NCBI RefSeq assembly: GCF_003691585.1
Contig: NZ_CP033169.1
Span: 2,914,001 to 2,978,000 of the forward strand
DNA: 64,000 bases
Direction: 5' to 3'
DNA from: Biomaibacter acetigenes
GTDB lineage: Bacteria; Bacillota; Thermosediminibacteria; Thermosediminibacterales; Tepidanaerobacteraceae
In this document: positions 23,247-52,228 of the stretch, piece by piece
Layout of the letters: every line of letters begins with the position of its first letter
Position numbering within the stretch: the first letter of the stretch is position 1
Position numbers and translations under genes: made by a program
Notes under the pieces: model-generated
The model's database searches: none
What the model saw: only the letters and a program-made list of their open reading frames with translations
Told to the model about the DNA's origin: nothing

Positions 23247-23258
23247 TAAAAAATGATG

Positions 23259-23288
23259 AAGGAAATCCCGAATGGATTTCCTTTTTTT
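23259..23288 (+). terminator. Terminator of the arsR-permease-thioredoxin unit
   Basis: A 10-bp stem (AAGGAAATCC and GGATTTCCTT) with a 5-base loop is followed by a T-run. Confidence 0.9.
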
Positions 23289-23315
23289 ATAATTGATTCT
23301 GGTATAGAAACTAAG

Positions 23316-23538
23316 TCCGCTGCCGGAGATGGCTAAAAGCACCGTTTAGCGAAGCCGTCGCCGCTCTTGAGTTTAGAACAACACCCACCTTCGGTGGGTA
23401 CCCGGTGGAGGCAGCGGGCACAAGCCCTGCGGCCGGCAGAAAGGCACACGCTGAATTGCCGGCGAACCTCCACGAAGTGCAGGAATAAACTCTAGAGCGG
23501 CAGGGTGAACGGAGGTGCTGGGCCATCTCCGACAGGGA
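23316..23538. repeat. Nested multi-stem palindromic element (possible structured RNA or MITE-like repeat)
   Basis: No gene is visible here. The element is closed by a 10-bp perfect stem (324-333 with 522-531, continuing outward with mismatches to 316-538). Inside it are a 6-bp stem (338-343/514-519) and a 15-of-16-bp stem (360-375/486-501). Beyond those lie a 7-bp hairpin ACCCACC-TTC-GGTGGGT (383-399), a 7-bp stem (405-411/467-473), a GGGC/GCCC hairpin (411-430) and a 7-bp stem (432-438/457-463). (Offsets are from 23000.) Such a branched, fully nested layout does not arise by chance. A degenerate relative lies at about 36.5-36.7 kb. Which strand is expressed, if any, cannot be told. Confidence 0.75.
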
Positions 23539-23609
23539 AGTGACTTTTTACACCAGAATTATAATTGTTTTTATTAATATATACTACAGCATATTGCTTC
23601 CCGAATATA

Positions 23610-23900
23610 TTATTGTAGATTTACTTCCAATATTTCCTCCGGGGTCTTTACTATTATATCTTTGTATTTTTCAAAATCCTTTGTGTTATAGGTGCAAATA
23701 TTGGAAATCCCCCGGGATTGCATCATCGCCACAAGCAATGAATCGAATATACTGGCTCCCTTAGCAGAATGAGTTAATACGATCTTTTCCAGATAATCCA
23801 GGGTATCTTCGCCAGGCTCCATTACTTCAAAGATTGATCTAAAAGTTTTCACCTGTTCCCAGGCAGTTTTTGGCTCCAGAGGATTCTGTAGGTTGAAAAA
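23610..23900 (-). pseudogene. PIN-domain toxin fragment
   Basis: The C-terminal two thirds of a VapC-like PIN ribonuclease: KGASIFDSLLVAMMQSRGISNICTYNTKDFEKY contains the D-D acidic cluster. The N-terminus with the first catalytic Asp is missing; the frame is open only from 23900, where a stop codon lies just upstream. No antitoxin gene is next to it. It is bordered by the palindromic element on one side. Confidence 0.7.
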
Positions 23901-47389: not shown

Positions 47390-47485
47390 AATTGGCAGCC
47401 CAACCGTCATGGCATTTGTATGCTGTAGACTTGCGGCTTTGTGCCCTCGCCTTTCGACGAGTTTACCCTTTTCAATTAATTAATT
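47390..47485 (-). promoter_or_regulatory. c-di-GMP-I (GEMM) riboswitch upstream of the che operon
   Basis: On the minus strand the conserved GEMM core can be read: AGGGTAAAC, a stem CTCGTC-GAAA-GGCGAG with a GAAA tetraloop, GGCACAAAGCCGCAAGTC, then a variable stem, and GACGGTTGGGCTGCC with its tetraloop-receptor side and ligand-binding G/C positions. About 90 bases before an intrinsic terminator, which precedes cheY. Binding of c-di-GMP should decide whether GGCTGCC is held in the riboswitch or freed to block the terminator stem. Confidence 0.85.
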
Positions 47486-51665: not shown

Positions 51666-52228
51666 CCTTGTGGGGATATCTTCTCGGGTTGTGCCAGATA
51701 CATACTCGGCCCTCCCTAGGACCCTTGCGGCTTCACCGCTTCTTTCCCAGGGTAGGCCCCTTGCGGGGTTTTCTGCTGTCGTCGATAGTTTTACGAACTT
51801 GCCAAGTTTTATCCCTCGCTTCGTGTTCGGCCCTTCGTCGGCCTGACGTCTGTGCCGGCTACTATGGCCTCTGCTGACTTCTGACGGTTCAGCCGGGCCT
51901 CTCAGCCCGGGTTGTTAGTTTCCCTAACGTTTCCGCCAACACCCACCTTCGGTGGGTACCCGCCCGGGTAAGAGCGATAGCCTTCGCCCCGTATACCTGC
52001 CGCATTTACTACACAGTCCCTTGGCAGCGCTGGATTTCGTTTTGTGATGCAAACTCATCCGAACTGTATAGCCTTGTATGCGGTTCGTGTTCCTCAGGTC
52101 GTGGCTTGCCTACAGCTTCCTTCAGATTCTACCTCACGATAGACACCCTTGCTGTTCAGCTAATGGTCGCCGCTGCCAGCCCCATAGCAGACTTTCACTG
52201 CTTAAGCTTCCGCCCATGCCGGGCGCAC
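51666..52228 (-). mobile_element. Group IIC intron, 5' fragment
   Basis: On the minus strand the piece starts GTGCGCCCGGCATGGGCG, the conserved group II 5' end, and continues with GTGAAAGTCTGCTATGGGGC and GTCAGCAGAGGCCATAGTAG, sequences typical of bacterial group II intron domain I and of the region preceding the reverse-transcriptase gene. The intron is cut at about 51666 by the IS110 fragment, and no reverse transcriptase or domain V is left. It begins exactly after a terminator T-tract, as class C introns do. A 26-bp hairpin inside it is shared with the element at 23.4 kb. Confidence 0.82.

Follow-up and report, generated by a model that had tools for sequence, protein, structure and literature searches.

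The window, a 64,000-nucleotide stretch of the Biomaibacter acetigenes genome, contains a 266-bp element (23295-23560) with inverted ends GATTCTGGTATAGAAA and TTTTTACACCAGAATT, flanked on both sides by ATAATT, which is probably a non-autonomous transposon of the MITE kind carrying a conserved, branched hairpin module. In relatives of the window copy this module is retained in place, flips, and rides on other ends. On the same reading the transposase would act in trans, inversion would run across the closing arms, and the module would have a job of its own.

Structure and extent of the window element

Predicted folding of the plus strand at 23316-23538 gave -118.7 kcal/mol, an energy that none of 200 dinucleotide shuffles reached (mean -82.5, sd 4.6; z -7.86), and the minus strand gave -116.1 kcal/mol (z -7.48; no shuffle as good), bearing out the nested palindrome that a preliminary description had placed here. 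The 15/16-bp inner stem of that description is also present, as two 16-nt halves that are 94% complementary with a single T.T mismatch. Its closing stem exists but is longer than the 10 bp first given, with arms of 38 nt that are 79% complementary, and its interval covers a real core but leaves out 21 bases of the element at its left end and 22 at its right. The terminator that it noted just upstream corresponds to a terminator-like hairpin, and its failure to assign a known RNA family agrees with Rfam 15, which gave no match over the window element at gathering score and none convincing at E up to 10. Twelve loci of other lineages likewise gave 0 matches at gathering score, and by these tests the core is a family of its own, absent from Rfam 15. 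The parts of the window copy and the hairpin beside it are as follows.

23258-23284 (+): terminator-like hairpin belonging to the upstream gene and not to the element; from a scan of the element surroundings
23289-23294 (no strand): left 6-bp target duplication, ATAATT; length 6 alone stands out (z 7.6, 26 elements)
23295-23560 (+): whole MITE-like element including inverted ends, TIR-bounded, 266 bp (L104 1476-1741); from alignments of copies
23295-23310 (no strand): left terminal inverted repeat, GATTCTGGTATAGAAA; from copy alignments and the TIR-bounded element set
23296-23333 (no strand): left closing arm, 38 nt, 79% complementary to 23522-23559; from inverted-repeat measurement
23360-23375 (+): inner stem, 5' half, GCCGCTCTTGAGTTTA, pairing with 23486-23501 apart from a single conserved T.T mismatch; from the fold and compensatory changes in copies
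23379-23404 (+): 26-bp hairpin, CAACACCCACCTTCGGTGGGTACCCG, in some copies only, resembling a separate tiny mobile palindrome; from BLAST matches and copy alignments
23405-23411 (+): apical stem, 5' half, GTGGAGG, with partner CCTCCAC at 23467-23473; from the fold, covarying
23414-23430 (+): apical hairpin a (GCGGGC ACAA GCCCTGC); from the fold, stem covarying GC/AT
23432-23463 (+): apical hairpin b (GCCGGCA ... TGCCGGC), best conserved part across the phylum; from the fold and phylum matches
23486-23501 (+): inner stem, 3' half; from the fold and inverted-repeat measurement
23522-23559 (no strand): right closing arm; from inverted-repeat measurement
23545-23560 (no strand): right terminal inverted repeat, TTTTTACACCAGAATT; from copy alignments and the TIR-bounded element set
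23561-23566 (no strand): right 6-bp target duplication, ATAATT; same basis as the left copy

The 26-bp hairpin CAACACCCACCTTCGGTGGGTACCCG is missing from copies L010, L011, L012 and L017, and the identical 26-mer occurs at other sites. Besides the one inside the window element, sites were seen at 51937-51962 of the window and in L024, L025, L026, L010, L032, L033, L034 and L039. Several of them, in several genomes of the phylum, lie inside or beside group II intron sequence, and others inside some copies of the element; the second site in the window is beside group II intron domains D1-D4 (51830-52143, minus strand). This hairpin may be a very small mobile palindrome that inserts into structured RNAs. 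Elsewhere in the window, a short open frame downstream of the element (23610-23852, minus strand) has a weak PIN-domain match below the Pfam cut-off and may be a gene remnant, and a c-di-GMP-I riboswitch (80 bits) lies at 47391-47477 on the minus strand.

Copies, ends and target duplications

A genome-wide BLAST for copies, the check that had been proposed, returned 22 matches to the 223 bases in the window genome (G000, a single 3.4-Mb contig), five of them to the 26-bp hairpin only. A covariance model gave 20 matches in the same genome, three of which are the second strand of a place already listed, leaving about 17 places. The copies are dispersed and intergenic, with no gene inside, and a protein-coding element was rejected because open reading frames of at least 100 aa cross just four of 65 copies.

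Among 26 TIR-bounded elements, a target duplication of exactly 6 bp stood out, with 4.38 of 6 positions matching against 3.00 expected (z 7.6); every other length tested, between 2 and 12, stayed within 2 sd. One element, L072, enters this set twice with the same right end. Ends of this type read GATTCTGGTGTAGAAA. With terminal inverted repeats, a target duplication of fixed length and many copies lacking a coding gene, the window element has the traits by which MITEs are recognized, and the mobile repeat suggested by the preliminary description is supported. Among the end sites listed, the stretches that were inspected between matching ends showed no transposase, and a candidate IS256-type partner in G000 was set aside as a broken remnant without the element's ends. 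Apart from a partner transposase, the window copy qualifies as a MITE in every respect tested. Short forms of 66-120 bp built solely of ends also exist; L065, L066, L067, L069, L072, L073 and L078, which are 66-105 bp long and mostly ends, include some with the 6-bp duplication.

The window copy was found at its site in one genome only, retention in place and inversion being seen in its relatives. The thioredoxin-like gene upstream of it is present at 84-86% identity in three related genomes (G001, G004 and G009), none of which has an element after that gene, and the window copy is therefore most likely a young insertion.

A second kind of end was found in G207 and its relatives, where the core lies between ends reading CTGAGTTATCCCCA with a target duplication of exactly 9 bp (z 5.7, nine elements). 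Seven of these nine elements contain a core recognized by a covariance model of the fold (R1, below), while L228 and L230 are short forms without it. One core is thus carried on two kinds of mobile ends, and duplications of 6 and 9 bases point to two different transposases. Possible third ends, GGCTC..GGAAATGACCG, were noticed by eye in G036 and G120, with no duplication apparent by eye. Two further arrangements were observed among the copies: L154 is flanked by an additional inverted pair, GGGACGTTTCGTTTG / CAAACGAAACGTCCC, and a second palindromic repeat (CCGACTTCTGGCCTCCGA or similar) has replaced or broken the interior of L061, L018, L042, L051 and L054.

A plasmid or phage origin was rejected for the window element, which has no match in plasmids or phages. 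The L211 core matched one plasmid record (NZ_CP061968.1, L236) and no phage. In this record, which is unannotated, 27 kb long and labeled a Klebsiella plasmid, the element lies midway between perfectly inverted flanks; contamination or a fold-back artefact is likely. When three core patterns were scanned in viral contigs, the single hit was one 21-mer in one contig, which R1 did not recognize and which we attribute to chance.

Conservation of the fold across genera

The RNAalifold consensus of 16 copies has an energy of -160, compared with -62 (sd 4.8) when columns are shuffled; compensatory changes occur at 22 of the 47 pairs. These copies were drawn from G000, G001, G004 and G009, and R1 was built from them alone. 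Applied to the class, the model detects the fold in 12 of 26 genomes, among them those of three other genera of the family and of two other families without a full-length BLAST match. When 26 copies of other genera were realigned without the model, at least two Watson-Crick types were seen in 50 of 81 pairs. Across the phylum, R1 recognized the core in 29 of 299 genomes and 21 of 215 genera, on eight scored candidates per genome and with E-values that are rough; the apical hairpin sequences GGCATGGATGCC and GAGGCAGGATGCCGAATT are visibly common to these matches. The preliminary description had taken the element to be structured, naming missing compensation and an energy no lower than shuffled sequence as the outcomes that would speak against it; the copies show the reverse in both respects.

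Retention at orthologous loci

Cross-matching the flanks of 65 copies between species yielded 12 orthologous groups. A tree built from 60 copies recovers groups 2, 3, 4, 5, 6, 8, 10 and 11 as clades with support of 0.88-1.0 and group 7 nearly so, but not groups 1 and 9; five copies shorter than 170 nt had been dropped, which removed one member of group 12 and placed that group outside the test. Among three species of one genus, orthologous copies average 85% identity (17 pairs) compared with 75% for other pairs. Element identity is 0.73-0.97 in 21 of the 22 orthologous pairs and 0.59 in the remaining one, while the DNA 30-90 bp from orthologous copies is mostly unalignable.

Substitutions between orthologous copies follow the fold. 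Paired columns differ at 11% and unpaired columns at 18%, and there are 32 double Watson-Crick changes in place, against a null mean of 1.3 and maximum of 8 in 500 shuffles of partners over six loci. This count comes from 10 orthologous pairs in six groups, those that lie inside the alignment (L163, L156 and groups 1 and 8-12 fall outside it). Because of these double changes and the 22 compensatory pairs among the 16 copies, we conclude that the fold is kept by selection; a purely mutational upkeep of the palindrome is possible, and is weighed below.

Inversion in place

Relative to the same flanking genes, the element is reversed in 14 of 22 orthologous pairs and in 10 of 12 groups, all comparisons being between species with one genome each. 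Within the eight groups supported by the tree, 10 of 14 pairs are inverted and seven groups contain an inversion. G004 and G009, for example, share an uninterrupted left flank that reaches the end repeat, and the element, 97% identical between them, is reversed. Most of these genomes are drafts; in 17 copies that were measured, exact inverted arms extend over 7-20 bp at most, short enough to disfavor confusion by the assembler. Assembly error was rejected on these grounds and because G108 and G142, discussed next, are single-contig genomes. The closing arms vary in sequence among copies of one genome.

The best case of inversion is in the genus of G108, which belongs to an unrelated family. 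Nine of its genomes hold the locus, bounded in G108 by what we take to be an S41-peptidase-like frame and a glycerate-kinase-like frame, and no second copy was found in any of the nine at E 0.001. Six carry an intact element, which is upright in G108, G315, G247 and G316 and inverted in G142 and G314 (two of six); G317 has an inverted 74-bp remnant at the locus, and G318 and G319 have no element there. It is inverted in G314 even though the flanks are 97-98% identical to those of G108. Four of the five other intact species carry about 205-215 bp at 95-98% identity to G108, the exception being G315 (90% identical, 15 bases lost), whereas identity of the flanks goes down to 77%.

Strand signals in the paired bases

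An RNA is expected to keep G.U pairs and to avoid A.C, and RNase P RNA of the same class, taken as a control, has 253 G.T to 24 A.C, or 60 to 16 on pairs predicted by both strands. Counts for the element, those of the G108 genus aside, are for pairs that both strands predict. In the window's lineage (27 copies of G000, G001, G004 and G009) they are 65 G.T and 95 A.C, which is far from the control and unlike RNA there. The set of other genera has 81 to 43 on the plus strand, the class as a whole (53 copies) 146 to 138. Two further sets have 18:9 and 16:6 on the plus strand, and the G108-genus element has 5:0 in the core and 3:3 in the five outermost pairs. Outside the window's lineage the plus strand is therefore favored about 2:1, short of RNase P.

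Copies stand in both orientations relative to neighboring genes, and an effect of the transcribed strand was rejected, the wobbles being unbiased toward the direction of the neighboring gene (100 to 121, p 0.18). Two features of the unpaired bases bear on the same issue. In the plus strand, stems have internal loops of purines on both sides (CGAG/CGAG, for example), a kind that may form sheared G.A pairs, and the pyrimidine mismatch in the inner stem is conserved across genera; together they speak for a folded single strand of plus sense. A CsrA-type sponge acting through GGA loops was set aside, since some copies, including the window's, lack GGA. From these sequence patterns, a folded plus strand, as RNA rather than DNA, is weakly favored as the acting form.

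Proposed mechanism and alternatives

The history that we consider probable begins with a transposase, supplied from elsewhere, that would have moved the element by its ends and left the duplications. After insertion the ends would decay, and the module would persist through selection on its fold. Recombination between the closing inverted arms, or strand switching across them, would turn the module round. Because the module outlives the decay of the transposon ends, it presumably has a job of its own, most likely performed by the folded single strand of plus orientation. Several observations count against this mechanism: the wobbles of the window's own lineage are unlike RNA; copies flip and stand in both orientations relative to neighboring genes, neither of which a cis-acting RNA should tolerate; no transposase turned up between matching ends in the stretches inspected; the window copy was found at its site in a single genome; and groups 1 and 9 are not clades.

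The module could instead be a structured RNA gene dispersed by transposons and acting in trans from its own transcript, a tentative possibility that we hold below the mechanism just given. It accounts for the conserved branched fold, the GGA loops, the tandem G.A loops of the plus strand and the 2:1 excess of G.T over A.C outside the window's lineage. A gene of this kind should bring a promoter, but none is conserved, as the DNA beside orthologous copies is mostly unalignable and the score of a promoter scan around the window copy was not above shuffles; the missing Rfam family and a wobble ratio far below that of RNase P also count against it.

That the element is a plain MITE without function seems rather unlikely to us. 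In this scenario, hairpin replication switches strands, which corrects the arms and flips the middle, and the palindrome is kept by mutation only. A single process would then account for the compensation, for the inversions and for strand counts that show no bias (146:138), and both the ends-only forms and the plasmid record with the element centered in perfect inverted flanks, a sign of fold-back, agree with it. Mutational upkeep nevertheless fits poorly, because unpaired and mismatched positions are kept too (the inner-stem pyrimidine mismatch and the plus-strand purine loops) and because the elements of the G108 genus are nearly identical between flanks that are not.

Unlikely to a similar degree is an element acting at the DNA level as a hairpin or cruciform, for example as single-stranded DNA recognized by a recombinase, with inversion as its activity. 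Frequent inversion in place, including that between G108 and G314 within nearly unchanged flanks, is what it predicts, the wobbles are strand-neutral in the class as a whole, and both strands fold well. A sequence-specific recombinase should not, however, allow closing arms that differ between copies of one genome, and no recombinase gene was found beside the copies at the few loci looked at.

A broader reading makes the elements a phylum-wide set of invertible folded modules, carried on unrelated MITEs, kept by their hosts at fixed loci and switched on or off by turning over, as an RNA or as a barrier to transcripts. We regard it as speculative and very unlikely; if it were true, genomes rich in copies would hold many small phase switches of one design. 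Least probable of all are independent insertions at a shared hot spot in either orientation, which would give the same scatter of orientations and may explain some shared sites, groups 1 and 9 not being clades, but which conflict with the eight groups that are clades by locus and with the G108 genus, where there is no second copy to insert from.

Comparison with known elements

MITE-like structured repeats are usually seen as short-lived parasites of one species group. A fold that is common to many genera, sits on at least two kinds of ends, and is conserved in place at least as well as the neighboring genes, either way round, has no ready explanation, and raises the question of what a bacterium gains from a 200-bp fold that may be flipped. 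The element is a candidate Rfam family and offers a natural set of inversion events for studying the flipping of hairpins. Minute inversions of chloroplast intergenic DNA, in which short neutral hairpin loops between inverted arms flip between related species, are a parallel, except that what flips in the present case is a module of about 200 bp that is conserved and covaries. Cyanobacteria carry very small mobile repeats, to which the 26-bp hairpin CAACACCCACCTTCGGTGGGTACCCG is comparable by description only. A literature search, conducted mostly outside subscription papers, found no description of this element family or of MITE-like repeats that invert in place.

As far as the available passages of the source papers go, the nearest described kinds are the bcr repeats and BOX/RUP. 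In the Bacillus cereus group, bcr1-bcr3 (MITE-like) and bcr10/bcr18 are dispersed intergenic structured repeats of 100-400 bp in many copies, 40-51% of which occur in transcripts, and bcr1 is confined to that group with its mobility tied to a TTTAT motif, according to the accessible portions of two reports (PMC3446304, PMC6542083). Compared with the bcr repeats as presented there, the core reported here occurs in 21 of 215 sampled genera, is flanked by two kinds of ends (6- and 9-bp duplications) and inverts at its locus. BOX and RUP of Streptococcus pneumoniae are MITE-like and intergenic, with ends paired in a large predicted fold, and are rare outside pneumococcus and S. mitis, again from the available part of the account (PMC3049150). 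Inversion in place and a phylum-wide core distinguish the present element from BOX and RUP, neither trait appearing in that part of their description (PMC3049150).
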